This document shows, in pieces, positions 3,625-15,072 of a stretch of DNA of 23,065 nucleotides. The first letter of the stretch is position 1; each line of letters begins with the position of its first letter. Origin of the DNA: a virus. The notes under the pieces were generated by a model, which saw only the letters and a list, made by a program, of their open reading frames with translations, searched no databases and was not told the origin of the DNA. Location of the stretch: positions 1 through 23,065 of IMG/VR virus record IMGVR_UViG_3300031974_000576; one strand, written 5' to 3'. The translations under genes were made by a program, and so were the position numbers.

Positions 3625-5259
3625 GTGGCACAAACATTTACTTTTTTTAAAGGCGCAGAAAAAGGCAAAGGTAATCCTAACTACCTCTATGAGCAACGGG
3701 GGCTTAACGAAGAAGCAACTGTAGAAGACCTTCAGGAGTACTTTGAGTCAACCAACCGTTTGCAAGAACAGTTTGGAAGTTTTGACAACTACCTTTCGTA
3801 CATGACTGAACGTGAGCAGCTGATTCAGTCAGGCGACTACGACGTAGGTAACTGGGCAGAAGCCGACGCTGGTTTTACTGAGGACCAGCAAATGATCTTT
3901 GAGGGTGACGCTGATCTAACTATTGATCCTAGTGACCCCGGTCAAAGCCTTACGAACTTACGTAGACAACAATCAGGTGCCCAAAGCGGTGCTTACGAAA
4001 ACTGGGTTAACTCTGATGCTAACCAAGCGTTGTTACAAAAGTACGGCATTAGCGACACTGTCTACAGCGAAACAGGTGACAAGTTTCGTTGGAACGGGTC
4101 AGCTTACGTAAAGACCCAAGACGAAGACAAAGTCACTCTGGGTGACTACGCTAAAATGGCTATGGGCGTAGCTATGGGTTATTACGCTGGTCCTGCTCTG
4201 GGAGAAGCTTTAACAGGTGCTTCAGGAGCTGCTGCAGGAACAGCAACAGGCTCTGCCGTAACAACTGCAGGAGGAGCTACTGTTGGAGCAGCAGGAGGAA
4301 CCGCCGCAGCTACTACTGCTGGTTCTTTTTTACAAGGAGCCATAAACAGCACCCTTGGAAGCGCTATATCTCAAGGTATAGCTACAGGTTCTGTAGACGC
4401 TAGACAGTTAGCTACAGCAGGTATCATGGGTGGCGTTGGAGGAGTAGCAGACGCTATAAAAGCTGGAGAGCTTACAGGTACGGCAGCGTCCAACGCTATT
4501 AATGAACTTGCTACAACAACAGGTCTTTCCGTAGCTGAAACAACAAACATTGTTGAAGGCGTTATTAACGGCACTGTTACTGGTAGTGACATAGAAGACA
4601 TTGCTCTAGGGGCAGTACAAGGTTACACATCGGGCCAAATCAAAAACGCTCTTAGTAACATCCTTGGAGACGAAGTAGAAATTCCAAATGTTTTTGACGA
4701 CAAAACAACAACAATTCCTATTGAGTCCTTAAGCCCTTTTATTGACACTGCTGTAAACGCAGCTTTTGAAGGAAACCTAGAAACAACTGACGTATTAGGA
4801 GCGATAGGAGACTATTTAGACGAAGGCGGTAGTCTGTCATTCCTAGACCCAACCAGAGCTTTTGATTTAGACGCTGAATTATTTGGTCTTCCTGAAAGCT
4901 TAAGAGAAATTGGAAGAGAAACTGAAGACTTTGTAAGAGACGTAGTTAGACCTATCGGCCAAGCAGCGGACTACATCAAAGAACAACTTCCGCATGGAGA
5001 AACACCGGAGTTTGCTACAATAACTGGACCAGACTTGCCCAGTATAGACACTCCTGACCTACCTAGATTGTCCTTAGGTGGCGGCATGTTAGGCGGAGGT
5101 GGTGTAGTAGGAGTAGCTGACAAAGACCCCAAACTTTCCTACGAATCTCCCGGAATAGTAGAAGCCCTTGGTGGAGGAAGTCAACAAAACTTAGCGCTAC
5201 AACAGCTAACAGAACTAATACAGAGAAGCTCAAAGCCACCTAGAGGAATGCTTGCATGA
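3625..5259 (+). CDS. Gly/Ala-rich virion protein, 544 aa
   Basis: The start is a GTG at 3625 with a strong AAGGAG (3613-3618) six bases upstream. The N-terminal ~165 residues are acidic and soluble-looking, with many Gln, Tyr and Asp. The middle (about 175-300) is very rich in Gly, Ala and Thr, with long small-residue stretches that could be membrane-active or flexible. The C-terminal part has a run of D-L-P motifs and a glycine-rich MLGGGGVVGV stretch. The gene ends in an ATGA overlap with the tail adaptor gene, so it belongs to the tail-assembly block. It is probably a structural or internal virion protein; no named family is recognised. Confidence 0.65.
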   Translation: MAQTFTFFKGAEKGKGNPNYLYEQRGLNEEATVEDLQEYFESTNRLQEQFGSFDNYLSYMTEREQLIQSGDYDVGNWAEADAGFTEDQQMIFEGDADLTIDPSDPGQSLTNLRRQQSGAQSGAYENWVNSDANQALLQKYGISDTVYSETGDKFRWNGSAYVKTQDEDKVTLGDYAKMAMGVAMGYYAGPALGEALTGASGAAAGTATGSAVTTAGGATVGAAGGTAAATTAGSFLQGAINSTLGSAISQGIATGSVDARQLATAGIMGGVGGVADAIKAGELTGTAASNAINELATTTGLSVAETTNIVEGVINGTVTGSDIEDIALGAVQGYTSGQIKNALSNILGDEVEIPNVFDDKTTTIPIESLSPFIDTAVNAAFEGNLETTDVLGAIGDYLDEGGSLSFLDPTRAFDLDAELFGLPESLREIGRETEDFVRDVVRPIGQAADYIKEQLPHGETPEFATITGPDLPSIDTPDLPRLSLGGGMLGGGGVVGVADKDPKLSYESPGIVEALGGGSQQNLALQQLTELIQRSSKPPRGMLA

Positions 5260-9654: not shown

Positions 9655-12396
9655 ATGGCTACTAAAAAAGACTTAGAGCAGGGAATACAGCGCCTTGACT
9701 CTATGATTGAAGCTGAAACAGACCCTGTAAAGAAACAGCAAATGCTAGACGACCTGTCTGTTCTTGCTGCAGAGTACAGAGGACTTTCAGGTAAAACGGT
9801 TGAAGAAAGTCCTGTAATAGAAGACCTTCGTGCTAAAAAGACAGACCTTGCGGGATTAGCAAACGCTATAGTTTCTGGCCTAAACAGAGGGGTTCTTTCC
9901 CTTGCGGACTTACCCTTTGATGTGGTTAATGCAGGACTACAGGCGTTTGACTTGCCTACGGGAGGTACGCCCAGTCAAGCTTTGGACCGCCTATCAACAA
10001 AAGTATTTGGACTGCCTTTAACAACGTCTCCTTATGTAGACAGCCCTACAGAACGCATGTTTCAAACAACGGCTGAATACGCTGGCGGGGGCTTTGGTTA
10101 TGGCGCTGCAGCTAAGGAACTAGGACAAAGATACTTGGCTAGCAGGATGCCTAAAGGTGCTCCTGACACTGTACTGGAGTCAATGGCTAGAACAGCGGCT
10201 ACTCCCGGTGCTGTAGGTTTGGAAACCGCAGTATCTACTGCTGCAGGAGTACCTGCTTCTATTGCTAGAGAAGAAGGAGCAGGTCCTTTTGGAGAAATGG
10301 CAGCTTCTTTTGCTGGAGGAGTAATACCTTCAGCGGCTTTTGGAACAGCTAAGCTTATTTCAGACACTGCTGGACAGTTTACTAGGTCCGGGGCAGAACT
10401 TCGTGTAGGCAATGTTTTTACTGAAGAAGCTCAAGACTTGAACCAAGCAATAGAAAACCTAAGTAAAAACCAATTAGTCGTAGAGTCTGCTCTTCCTGCA
10501 GGAACACAGATAGACGCTGCACGTCTTACAGAAGATCCCGGTGTTATGAGGGTTTTTTCAGCGGCTGCTGCTAATGATGCCAACATCCACAACATCTTAG
10601 GACGTAATCAAGACCAAGTATCGGAAGAAATCATAGATCAACTTGAGGCTTCCGCTGCTGGAGACACTCAAACCTTTCTTTCTACTCTTAACGCAAGAAC
10701 TAACGATTGGATTAAAAGACTAGAAGACGAAATAGACTTAGCTCAAAATCAAGCAGACATAATAGAGCAGAGAGTAGTCCCTAGAAGGGACGGGTCTCCT
10801 GTAACTATGGATCAGCTAAGTATAGACTTTACCAATGCTTTAGAAAAAAGCTATAGAAGAGCTAAAGACTACGAACGTCAAATGTGGGCAACCGTAGACA
10901 AGCACGTCAAAATGGACGCAAAGCGCTTTAGACTAATGGGTTTGCGCCTAAGAAATCAAATGTTGCGTGAAGGTTTTAGTGACAAAAGCTTTGCTGGAAT
11001 GTTTGGTGACGACGAGATCATGCGTTTCGGTAAGCAGATCAAGAAGGACGACGGTACGTTAAAGAAATCTCCAGATTCCAGAGATAGTTTTGAAGCGTTA
11101 CAAAGATACCGTTCTAGACTCTTAGCGGCTAAAAGAGAAGCTGTAAAGAATGGTGACAAGGAAACTGTAGCTGCTTTGTCGAGACTTGACGACCTTGTTA
11201 ATGACTTTATTGACTCAGGCCCCAATTCGGAGTCCTATAGGGCTGCTACTGAAGTTACTCGTACAATAAATCAAAACTATAACAGAGGTAAGCTAGGTAA
11301 GTACCTGAACTTAGACGCTCAGGGAGACCGTAGGATTGATCCTGAAGTTGCTTTAAATACGATTGTGTCTCCCGGAGCAAACGTCGGTCAGGTAAGAAGA
11401 GCACTAGAAGCAGAGCAACAAGGTGTAGAAGGCGTTCCTCCTGCTAGAGGTCTTAGAAAGCCTATTGAAGAAGCTTTAATTCTTAAGTTTCCTTTTGAAG
11501 GTACTAAAAAACAAAGGGAAAAGTTTTTTGAGTCCTATGGTCCTACTTTGCGGCGCTTCCCTACTTTAGCAAGAGACTTAAATGCTATTGACGTAGAAAT
11601 AAACACTCTAGCTCAACACCGCTCTAGCTTAGAAGGCCGTCTTGCAACTAAGATGGACGAAGATGTTGTAGGTGTTTCAGCGTTACTGGGGGCAAATCCT
11701 GATGATATTTACGGGACTCTTAGAAAACTGAATAGAGCAGACCTTCAGAATGTCAACAACATAGCTATTCAAGAAGGCGTAGAGCAAGGCCTTCAAACTA
11801 TTTACATTAGACAAATTGTAGACGCATTAGTTCCTACTGTAGCTTCGAGGGACATACCCGGAGGCACTGCCTCTTTAGCTAAAATACTTAGGGGCGACAA
11901 ACACCTAGCCATGGCTTTTACGGACGTGTTGACTCCAGAACAAAGAAAAGCTTTAGCTAATTTAGACAAGACAAGTACACTTGCTGCAAGAAGTTTGGCA
12001 AGAGAAGGAAGATCAGTAGAAGCTGAGAAGCTTTCCAGATCTACAACGCCTGTACAGGTAATCGCTAAATTCCTTGGTGTAAAAACAGCAGGAGCTGTAG
12101 GACCTTCTGGTGCTGCTTCTCTGCAGTTTGCTGCTACTTTATCCAGCGTATTTACTAAAGTTTTTGACGTTCTTCCTGCAGCCCAAAGCAGAGCAGTGTT
12201 AACAAGGGCTGTGACCGACCCGGAGTACTTAAAAACAATACTTCAGACTAATGCTGTTGGAGCCGTTGATAGTGCTACAGCTTCACGTAAATTAGGAGAA
12301 ATGGAAACTTTCTTGCGTAGATCAGGAATACGTGCTGGACAAGAAATTCAGAGGATCTATAAGGAAGAGCAGAGACGCCAGCAGGAGCAAAACTAG
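9655..12396 (+). CDS. Large internal virion/ejection protein, 913 aa (gp16-like by position)
   Basis: This is the longest protein in the window, with an AGGA site at 9645-9648. It starts with a charged helix, then has Gly/Ala-rich segments at about 75-240 (AEYAGGGFGYGAAAKELG, FAGGVIPSAAFGTAKL) that could insert in membranes. A long helical, Arg/Glu-rich body (about 340-700) follows, and the Gln/Arg-rich end reads EEQRRQQEQN. The size and position suit the large ejection protein of T7-like phages (gp16, about 1318 aa). It is clearly shorter, and no lytic transglycosylase motif like that at the N-terminus of T7 gp16 is visible. If a cell-wall-cutting activity exists in the core it must lie elsewhere, possibly in the next gene. 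Confidence 0.65.
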   Translation: MATKKDLEQGIQRLDSMIEAETDPVKKQQMLDDLSVLAAEYRGLSGKTVEESPVIEDLRAKKTDLAGLANAIVSGLNRGVLSLADLPFDVVNAGLQAFDLPTGGTPSQALDRLSTKVFGLPLTTSPYVDSPTERMFQTTAEYAGGGFGYGAAAKELGQRYLASRMPKGAPDTVLESMARTAATPGAVGLETAVSTAAGVPASIAREEGAGPFGEMAASFAGGVIPSAAFGTAKLISDTAGQFTRSGAELRVGNVFTEEAQDLNQAIENLSKNQLVVESALPAGTQIDAARLTEDPGVMRVFSAAAANDANIHNILGRNQDQVSEEIIDQLEASAAGDTQTFLSTLNARTNDWIKRLEDEIDLAQNQADIIEQRVVPRRDGSPVTMDQLSIDFTNALEKSYRRAKDYERQMWATVDKHVKMDAKRFRLMGLRLRNQMLREGFSDKSFAGMFGDDEIMRFGKQIKKDDGTLKKSPDSRDSFEALQRYRSRLLAAKREAVKNGDKETVAALSRLDDLVNDFIDSGPNSESYRAATEVTRTINQNYNRGKLGKYLNLDAQGDRRIDPEVALNTIVSPGANVGQVRRALEAEQQGVEGVPPARGLRKPIEEALILKFPFEGTKKQREKFFESYGPTLRRFPTLARDLNAIDVEINTLAQHRSSLEGRLATKMDEDVVGVSALLGANPDDIYGTLRKLNRADLQNVNNIAIQEGVEQGLQTIYIRQIVDALVPTVASRDIPGGTASLAKILRGDKHLAMAFTDVLTPEQRKALANLDKTSTLAARSLAREGRSVEAEKLSRSTTPVQVIAKFLGVKTAGAVGPSGAASLQFAATLSSVFTKVFDVLPAAQSRAVLTRAVTDPEYLKTILQTNAVGAVDSATASRKLGEMETFLRRSGIRAGQEIQRIYKEEQRRQQEQN

Positions 12397-12406
12397 AAGA
12401 CTAAGT

Positions 12407-13177
12407 ATGGAAAATAACAACACAACAATTGTATATGGTAATCGTGCTAGGGGTCAAGCTCATATTAGCGATGAGTTTGTTATTGATATGCTAAACAGGC
12501 TACCTGAGCAGGGAAGACCGGGATCACCTCTGGGCTTTATGATGGGCTTGGGATTAAGCAACCAAGATACTGAGTTCAGGTCCTTTACTCGTCCTCCAAA
12601 AATTAAAGACGGTTTAATCTTAGGTGCTTATATGCCATCCGGTCAAGAATATCAGGCTACTCGAGATAAAATGGGCAGTCAGGTTAGAGGCGCAGGTACA
12701 GTTAGTCCTTACTCTGGAGGAGAAGACGTTGCTTACTTTACTCCTCAACATGTTTTAGAGCAAAGAGGATTGGCTGAACGAAACAGCGAATCAGATATAT
12801 TTGCTCATGAGCTTTTCCACAAAGGTGCTGTTCTTTCTATGCCTATCATTAATGACATGTTAGCAGAACGTGGTGGTCCTGTTGAGTTAGCTCTCTTAAA
12901 TAAAGATAAGCTAAAAGAATTTAAACAGTCTTTTGAAGAAGATTCTCATCATAGTAAATATTTAAAAGCTATGAACAAGTATTATCTTGTTAAGGGCGAT
13001 ACAAGTAAATTATCAAAAGAAGAAAATAAAGCCTTAGATGATGTTAAATCTATAAGCATCGCAATAAATCGTTATTTGACAGACGATAAAAAAGAAAAGT
13101 ATGGTATACGTACACCTACGAAAGCAGCGCGGCCTAAACCAAAGAAGAAAGGTTTGTTTGATAGGCTCCTGAAATAA
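12407..13177 (+). CDS. Putative zinc metalloprotease-like protein (HELFH motif), 256 aa
   Basis: This is the last gene of the structural arm. Residues 131-141 read IFAHELFHKGA. The H-E-x-x-H core (His134, Glu135, His138), with a hydrophobic residue before it, is the zincin metallopeptidase signature. The segment before it (YFTPQHVLEQ, then a charged loop) and the helix after it (SMPIINDMLAERGG) are compatible with a small zincin domain. A third zinc ligand is not certain; Glu177, Glu178, His181 and His182 (EEDSHH) are candidates. The C-terminus is basic (KPKKKGLFDRLLK). The ATG at 12407 is used, ten bases after the previous stop; a GTG at 12332 would run 65 bases into the 913-aa gene and is less likely. 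By eye the DNA is more AT-rich than the upstream genes. Possible roles are maturation of virion proteins, host-envelope penetration or lysis. A chance HExxH in a non-enzyme remains possible. Confidence 0.6.
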   Translation: MENNNTTIVYGNRARGQAHISDEFVIDMLNRLPEQGRPGSPLGFMMGLGLSNQDTEFRSFTRPPKIKDGLILGAYMPSGQEYQATRDKMGSQVRGAGTVSPYSGGEDVAYFTPQHVLEQRGLAERNSESDIFAHELFHKGAVLSMPIINDMLAERGGPVELALLNKDKLKEFKQSFEEDSHHSKYLKAMNKYYLVKGDTSKLSKEENKALDDVKSISIAINRYLTDDKKEKYGIRTPTKAARPKPKKKGLFDRLLK

Positions 13178-13196
13178 AAAAGGGGCCGAAGCCCCT
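13176..13196 (-). terminator. Intrinsic terminator for the leftward replication operon
   Basis: Read on the minus strand, the sequence is AGGGGC, a TTCG loop, GCCCCT, then six T. That is a six-base-pair GC-rich stem with a UUCG tetraloop and a U-tract, a textbook Rho-independent terminator. It fills nearly all of the 23-base gap between the stop of the HELFH gene (13177) and the stop of the reductase gene (13201). On the plus strand the same hairpin lacks a downstream T-run (AGTGTCACAA follows), so it should be efficient mainly for the leftward transcript. Confidence 0.9.
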
Positions 13197-13200
13197 AGTG

Positions 13201-15072
13201 TCACAACTCACAGTTATTGCCTGTACACGCTAACTGTTGAGACCCTTCCGTCATGTCAGAGTTCTCAGAGACGTTCCAATCAATCGTCTCTGGGAATTCC
13301 TCCTTCAGCTTCTCATAGGTCTCTAAGTCTATGGGTTCATATGGTGCTTGCTGGTACGTATGTTCGGAATAAGGGAGGAACGATACTCCACTAATCTTGT
13401 CGAACTTGTTGTACAACCACTGACCTACCTCAAGGAACTCGTTGTCACGGTAGTAACACGTCATTGACGGCTTGTGTTCACACCAGAAGTCCTGATAGAT
13501 CTCCCATAGCTCAAGTTGCTCCATAGCACCCATCTCAGAGGCCACCACAGCCCCGTCAGGAGACTTAATGGGGAAAGAGAATACCTTGGTAGTGGGTGAC
13601 ATTACGTCGTCCTCTACGGGCACTCCAGCGGCTTCTAGGACTTGACAGAGTGGGTCCCTTGAGTCCGCTCTAACTCGTCTAATGTACTGATCTGCATATC
13701 TAGGGTGGATGCCAGATGCAGAATCAACCAACTGACTAACAGTACCGGAAGGTTTAACAGCAGTAATGGCAGCGCTAATATTAATACCAAGCTTGTCAGC
13801 CCATTCCGCATTAGTACTAATCGCTTCCTCTTTGAGGGCCACAAGCCAATCCTTAAGTTTTTCACGGTCTTCCCTCCCTGACAACACAGCGTGATCCATG
13901 ATGCCTGTTAGTGATACACCCAGAAGTGCTTCTTCTTCGGTGTTCTTTTGCCACACTTTACGTAAGTAACGGAAGTCTGTTAACGTAGCCTGAAGAGTCC
14001 CAAGGATAGTTGCAACACGTACTTTTCGTTTGAGGTCTGACAGCGTATCTCCTGCCCTGACAACAACTTCCGATAGATTGCAGAACTGGTAGGGCCGCAA
14101 GATGATCTCTGAGCATGGATTAGTTCCAAAATCATAGGTAGCATCTCGTCGCTCATTTTTTGCAGCTTGTTTTTGACTTGCGACTCTAGAGAACATACCT
14201 CGTTCTCCGGAGCGGGACTCGTATAAACTTTTCCACTCATTTAAAAACGCCTCAAAGTCTGGCTTCTCTGTGTAACATGCGCTGTTATTCGCTAGTCCTC
14301 GTTGAGGGTTGTCTTGCCACCATTGTCCTGACTTACATCGTCGGAGTCTATCGTCAGTGAGGTTAGACAGACTGATGAGAGCGGACCTGCGTACACCGCC
14401 GACGACGACGATCTGTGCAATCTTACAGCAGAGATCATGACATTCGATGGAGCTAAGTTTACGTCCAGCAGCCTCCCGAAAGACGCTGACTGTGAAGTTG
14501 AACAAATCGACAAGAGGTTCTGGACCAGACGCTCTACCTCCGAAGGTCTTAAGGGTTGCCCCTGCAGGTCGTACTCCAGAGATGTCCCATTTTGGAAGTT
14601 GACCTGAATACAACAAGCTAATAAGTTCCCGGTAAGCTTTAGCCCATCCAATTTTGCTGTCGGCGACATGTATAACTGTATCGGTATCATGAAAGTCCTC
14701 TGCTACTTCTGGTAATTTACTAACGTACTGACGCTCCACACTGAAGCCCACACCAGTACCACACATTAGGACGTACATCATTTCGTCAAATGCTTTAGGA
14801 TGGTCGATAGGCAGATAAGAGCAGTTAAACCCTGCTACATTGTCACGGTCCAGTGCTTCTCCAGCAGTCATGAGTGCTCTCATGGACGGCATTACGTCCA
14901 ACTCATGAATACTCTGGAAGATCTCACTCTGGTCAAACTCATTGAGTTCTACACGGTCACACCAGTAGTTCAAGTAGCGGTTTACGGTTTCTTCCCAAGT
15001 CTCCCGTCGCTGCTCCTCTGGTAGGTAACGAGCGTACCGTGACTTGTGTATGTACTGTTGATATGCGTCCAT
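13201..15072 (-). CDS. nrdJ: Ribonucleotide reductase, class II adenosylcobalamin-dependent, monomeric type
   Basis: This 623-aa enzyme reduces ribonucleotides to deoxyribonucleotides using vitamin B12 coenzyme, and supplies phage DNA synthesis in the cytoplasm. The active-site pieces are all present. Cys84 (GFNCSYL) and Cys331 (QFCNLSEV) are the redox pair. Asn318-Pro-Cys320-Ser-Glu322 carries the thiyl-radical Cys and its Glu. Cys616 and Cys621 (CTGNNC) are the C-terminal shuttle cysteines. GGVRRSALISL (225-235) and KPSGTVSQLVDSASGIHPRY (440-459) are family blocks. It resembles the Lactobacillus RTPR-type enzyme but is about 115 residues shorter than that 739-aa protein. No small subunit gene is needed and none is nearby. 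The ATG at 15072 has GGAG nine bases upstream. It is the last gene of the leftward operon, ending just before the terminator. Confidence 0.93.
   Translation of the reverse strand: MDAYQQYIHKSRYARYLPEEQRRETWEETVNRYLNYWCDRVELNEFDQSEIFQSIHELDVMPSMRALMTAGEALDRDNVAGFNCSYLPIDHPKAFDEMMYVLMCGTGVGFSVERQYVSKLPEVAEDFHDTDTVIHVADSKIGWAKAYRELISLLYSGQLPKWDISGVRPAGATLKTFGGRASGPEPLVDLFNFTVSVFREAAGRKLSSIECHDLCCKIAQIVVVGGVRRSALISLSNLTDDRLRRCKSGQWWQDNPQRGLANNSACYTEKPDFEAFLNEWKSLYESRSGERGMFSRVASQKQAAKNERRDATYDFGTNPCSEIILRPYQFCNLSEVVVRAGDTLSDLKRKVRVATILGTLQATLTDFRYLRKVWQKNTEEEALLGVSLTGIMDHAVLSGREDREKLKDWLVALKEEAISTNAEWADKLGINISAAITAVKPSGTVSQLVDSASGIHPRYADQYIRRVRADSRDPLCQVLEAAGVPVEDDVMSPTTKVFSFPIKSPDGAVVASEMGAMEQLELWEIYQDFWCEHKPSMTCYYRDNEFLEVGQWLYNKFDKISGVSFLPYSEHTYQQAPYEPIDLETYEKLKEEFPETIDWNVSENSDMTEGSQQLACTGNNCEL

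Follow-up and report, generated by a model that had tools for sequence, protein, structure and literature searches.

Does the small gene that closes the late operon of an uncultured phage encode a metallopeptidase and, if so, what would the phage use it for? The window analysed here is a stretch of 23,065 nt, IMG/VR record IMGVR_UViG_3300031974_000576, whose source is an uncultured, short-tailed and probably marine phage. Its best polymerase match is to Pelagibacter phage HTVC103P (48%), the window being a 23-kb fragment. A sequence-only reading had pointed to a HELFH zinc-protease motif in the last gene of this operon and had suggested a separate envelope-active or processing enzyme. Zincin domains in ejected phage proteins have long been predicted, but their role has stayed obscure because they are buried within very large proteins. 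If, as here, the putative enzyme has a small gene to itself, which some phages carry and close sisters lack, comparing phages and deleting the gene can test that role directly, and the target can be found. Here, we argue that the gene product is a free-standing zincin-type metalloprotein with a His/His/His site and that the gene is an optional addition to the ejection module. The protein would be packaged or delivered with the ejection proteins, or act on the ejection machinery, and would cleave a host or phage protein. We put the probability of this reading at roughly 55%; if true, it adds a His/His/His variant to the phage-delivered zincins.

Gene and genomic context

The stretch IFAHELFHKGA spans residues 131–141 of a 256-aa open reading frame (ORF), with HELFH at residues 134–138 and the His134 codon at 12806–12808, as the sequence-only reading had it. 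The ORF begins 10 nt past the stop codon of the 913-aa gene, and AGAAG lies seven nt upstream of its ATG (Table 1). A strong hairpin stands before the convergent reductase gene, which confirms that the zincin-like gene ends the late operon. Its proposed neighbourhood with ejection-type genes is likewise borne out, the ejection-protein calls resting on gene order, not homology: the succession of a small, a middle and a large gene is the one with which HMO-2011-type phages and N4 end their late operons, and upstream of these genes lie an SU10-type adaptor (Pfam SU10_adaptor) and a tail protein. Wherever the zincin gene occurs, it follows the large ejection-type gene and precedes the reductase. 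No recognisable lytic domain was found in the large ejection protein, in agreement with the earlier remark that it shows no transglycosylase motif. The further idea that the small gene makes up for this missing function is not upheld, as nothing points to an envelope target.

Table 1 Features of the window and of the related loci
Feature	Position or locus	Strand	Remark
Small internal-core-type protein, 276 aa	7411–8241	+	
Middle ejection-type protein, 466 aa	8243–9643	+	
Large ejection-type protein, 913 aa, type A	9655–12396	+	Replaced by type B or C beside the zincin gene in relatives
Zincin-like gene, 256 aa	12407–13177	+	ORF; last of late operon; same-place homologues in ~17 contigs; purifying selection
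D107-V-A-Y110	12725–12736	+	D and Y invariant; putative strand before the putative active-site helix; L004 model has a strand at the corresponding position
HELFH motif, H134/E135/H138	12806–12820	+	Two putative metal ligands and putative general base; invariant in 16 sequences, both subtypes
His182 (HSKYL)	12950–12952	+	Candidate third metal ligand; His in every member
Conserved C-terminal tail KPKKKGLFDRLLK	13136–13174	+	K-P-K-K-x-G-[LM]-F kept in both subtypes; in the model, a low-confidence linker comes before it
Terminator-like hairpin	13181–13196		−13.2 kcal/mol, z −2.9; between late operon and convergent reductase gene
Ribonucleotide reductase	13201–15072	−	Convergent synteny anchor; Pfam Ribonuc_red_lgC; 83–98% identical in sampled relatives
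Zincin subtype I, HELFHKG	Window, L001, L016–L018		
Zincin subtype II, HEFYHRG or HEFFHRG	L003–L014, L023		L005 ends before the motif
Large protein type A	Window 9655–12396, L003–L007		
Large protein type B	L001, L016–L018		e.g. L016:1593–4409
Large protein type C	L008, L010–L014		e.g. L014:2823–4631
G-M-[L/F] tails	Window 5245–5256 and 13136–13174; L046:7899–8630; L037:2616–4448; L008:3–1637		

Conservation of the motif and a third histidine

About 0.10 HExxH motifs are expected by chance in the 7,390 coding residues, and at least one occurs in 14% of shuffled proteomes (P ~0.14). A lone HExxH in the window proteome is statistically unremarkable; what is remarkable is its conservation. IMG/VR scans yielded about 17 related contigs in addition to the window, with one close relative at 90% identity, and a second subtype was found in the same place through the neighbouring large gene. 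The two subtypes share only 25–31% identity, yet match each other with a BLASTP E value of 9e-20. The loss of either histidine or the glutamate in homologues had been named as grounds for dropping the zincin assignment; applying this check, we find H134, E135 and H138, together with G140, invariant in 16 of 16 full-length sequences of both subtypes. With 27 invariant columns among the 222 of the alignment, the probability that three given columns are all invariant is ~0.0016. The gene is a separate ORF of 246–266 aa in all members and is under purifying selection, with dN/dS values of 0.11–0.44 within subtypes.

All 16 members also have a third histidine, which follows HExxH at a distance of 43 residues in subtype I and of 36 residues in subtype II. 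L003, L008–L012, L014 and L016 have only three histidines in the whole protein. The third histidine stands just before a helix whose end is the invariant Tyr192 in both subtypes. Because it is one residue out of register between the subtypes in the alignment, homology of its position is likely rather than proven. The alignment holds no invariant glutamate downstream of HExxH. As far as sequence can tell, both histidines, the glutamate and the third histidine thus form a candidate metal site, and to this extent the zincin reading stands. HExxH would lie on the catalytic helix with Glu135 as the general base, and the third histidine, contributed by a helix some 40 residues further on, would complete a His/His/His site for which we infer zinc as the metal.

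Of two structure models of low to moderate confidence, the better one is compatible with this arrangement. The model of the window protein is poor (pLDDT 57) and resembles only helical bundles, whereas that of the subtype II member L004 is better (mean pLDDT 68). The latter has an N-terminal helix, short strands at 83–85 and 112–115, HExxH on a confident helix (130–145) after the second of these strands, and His177 near the start of another confident helix (173–188), an order of predicted helices and strands compatible with zincin topology. Foldseek searches of the PDB and of viral models gave no significant match for either model. In a second-look alignment of the L004 model the first two rows were metallopeptidases, the BlaR1 metalloprotease 8exr (Z 3.1, rmsd 7.5, 115 residues aligned) and the putative zinc peptidase 4l7a (Z 2.8, rmsd 5.6, 155 aligned), both far below significance and to be read with the caveat that Foldseek also sees the motif letters.

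The C-terminal half is largely helical in the models and, together with the place among ejection-type genes, this would also suit a fourth ejection-channel or core protein with a structural, not catalytic, metal site. The glutamate of HExxH is, however, invariant along with both histidines, although a purely structural site could do without this residue; we consider such a protein improbable. The three-histidine signature could also be that of a metalloenzyme other than a protease, such as an HExxH-type iron/2-oxoglutarate hydroxylase, which likewise uses a third histidine, and HExxH occurs in radical-SAM-associated HExxH enzymes too, as noted in the N4 structure paper (PMC12633501). However, none of the searches run matched the protein to such enzymes by sequence or by fold, and the place in the ejection module suits an effector peptidase at least equally, which leaves this the least probable of the readings weighed here.

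Single-protein and profile sequence searches gave no credible match for the zincin-like protein in Pfam, PHROGs, NCBIfam or the PDB. Among annotated phages the sole match (MT836427, E 0.3) falls within an ORF that resembles an iron-sulfur oxidoreductase, and is a chance hit. The 93 matches of a pattern search in the genome collection included no relative, and the literature search found no paper describing this gene.

Comparison with known zincins

The earlier remark that the T7 core has no known enzyme of this kind needs qualifying, since the ejected virion RNA polymerase of phage N4 carries an HExxH domain (PMC5512222, PMC12633501). By analogy, the zincin domain inside such N4-type polymerases appears to be the nearest counterpart. 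The C1 domain of N4 gp50 (Schitoviridae), like the window protein, places HExxH within a protein of the ejection set, and the gene for gp50, like the window gene, closes the late block and follows those of two smaller virion proteins; the two families also share a local profile similarity, T-[LI]-x-H-E-x-x-H. In contrast, C1 is a domain of a 3,500-aa protein whereas the window protein is a stand-alone small gene product, and the C1 family has an invariant downstream glutamate (NEFMAW), the likely third ligand, where the window family has a histidine as the candidate. An hhalign comparison with the N4 HExxH-domain profile covered 17 columns around the motif at a probability of 12.7%. Residues 417–536 of a solved internal virion protein of 1,337 aa (PDB 9sfn_G) match the same profile with an E value of 1e-6 and have HExxH plus a glutamate. 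Hence, this HExxH domain is shared beyond the giant polymerases, and zincin domains in ejection proteins are already known.

The zincin-like MPTase domains of polyvalent proteins are parts of multidomain proteins and use glutamate as the third ligand (Iyer et al. 2017, PMC5512222). They resemble the window protein in HExxH, in a phage-delivered context and in being frequent in exchangeable modules; they differ from it in that it is a single small protein with a histidine and has no Pfam match. Membership of the N4 C1/polyvalent MPTase group was rejected on the third ligand and the profile test. Given this ligand, the stand-alone form and the lack of homology beyond the motif, the window protein is not shown to be a member, and it plausibly works like the zincin domains of N4-type and other ejection proteins. 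Metzincins are defined by HExxHxxGxxH/D. The window family shares HExxH and a third histidine with them but has its glycine at +2 after the motif (HExxHxG) and the third histidine 36–43 residues away, not 5, and was not placed among them.

Optional occurrence in the ejection module

The large ejection-type protein next to the zincin gene comes in at least three types with mutually undetectable similarity, subtype I pairing with type A or B and subtype II with type A or C. Despite these unrelated partners, the reductase is at least 91% identical across the zincin-carrying loci. A reductase search gave, among the matches listed, 80 contigs at 83–98% identity, ~72 of which extend at least 800 nt beyond the reductase. 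The zincin family is present in 3 of these ~72 among the matches listed, some known carriers lie outside that listing, and the true carrier fraction is uncertain. In non-carriers the slot holds a protein of a 550–650-aa family, a 244-aa protein, or a large protein directly, and the other occupants gave no family match among those tested. The 550–650-aa family (L035:8049–9707 and similar loci), which fills the terminal slot in many relatives, matches nothing in the databases and has a recurrent stretch like GGVNDFIAID...SDGHDLFG. The zincin family is also absent from the stretches read of the late operons of HMO-2011, HTVC103P, CRP-3, CRP-207, RHph_N3_13 and Slicky01. An HExxH in the late operon of ctYwJ313 belongs to an unrelated 102-aa ORF.

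The fixed place beside three unrelated large proteins, and the absence from ~69 of the ~72 sampled relatives, show the zincin gene to be a cassette that the ejection module can exchange or do without, rather than a maturation protease common to all these phages. A protease that cleaves ejection or core proteins in the infected cell before or during packaging, and need not enter the virion itself, would fit a gene that closes the structural operon and adjoins ejection-type genes, and it has a precedent in phage P1 DdrB, whose processing before packaging is attributed to its own zincin domain (PMC5512222). An obligate processor should, however, occur in every such phage and change together with its substrate, whereas most close relatives that have this module lack the gene, and where it occurs it is kept beside unrelated large proteins. 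This argues against an indispensable processor of the large protein, and the suggestion of a general processing enzyme is not supported; we regard a maturation role as unlikely. A conserved, optional and exchangeable putative metal-site protein that is co-expressed with ejection-type proteins is more easily explained as an accessory enzyme delivered by the virion than as a maturation protease that the phage cannot do without.

The preferred reading, an optional virion-delivered metalloprotein, makes the gene a cassette that closes the ejection-protein module in podophages of the HMO-2011/SU10-adaptor type. The protein would be made late, together with the ejection proteins, and its incorporation into the virion would be aided by the conserved basic/GLF C-terminal tail. 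It would then be delivered along with the ejection proteins and DNA, and we infer that it would cleave a host or phage protein at entry or in early infection.

A conserved C-terminal tail

The tail KPKKKGLFDRLLK is as conserved as the HExxH motif and may be a sorting signal. A similar tail, with G-M-[L/F] close to the C-terminus, is shared by five late-gene families that are otherwise unrelated; counted over the last 25 residues, there are 34 hits among 278 late ORFs and 0 among 414 early ORFs. It ranks top of 17,600 patterns in the late families, and support for a shared tail is marginal because the early families hold a different pattern at an equal count. One could go further and take the end of the late operon for a cassette site of exchangeable virion-delivered effectors that share this G-M-[L/F] sorting tail, the three-histidine zincin being one of them and cleaving a host protein on entry; this extension is speculative and, in our view, doubtful. 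Elsewhere in the window, positions 826–2556 encode a Pectate-lyase-type beta-helix tailspike (Pfam Pect-lyase_RHGA_epim).
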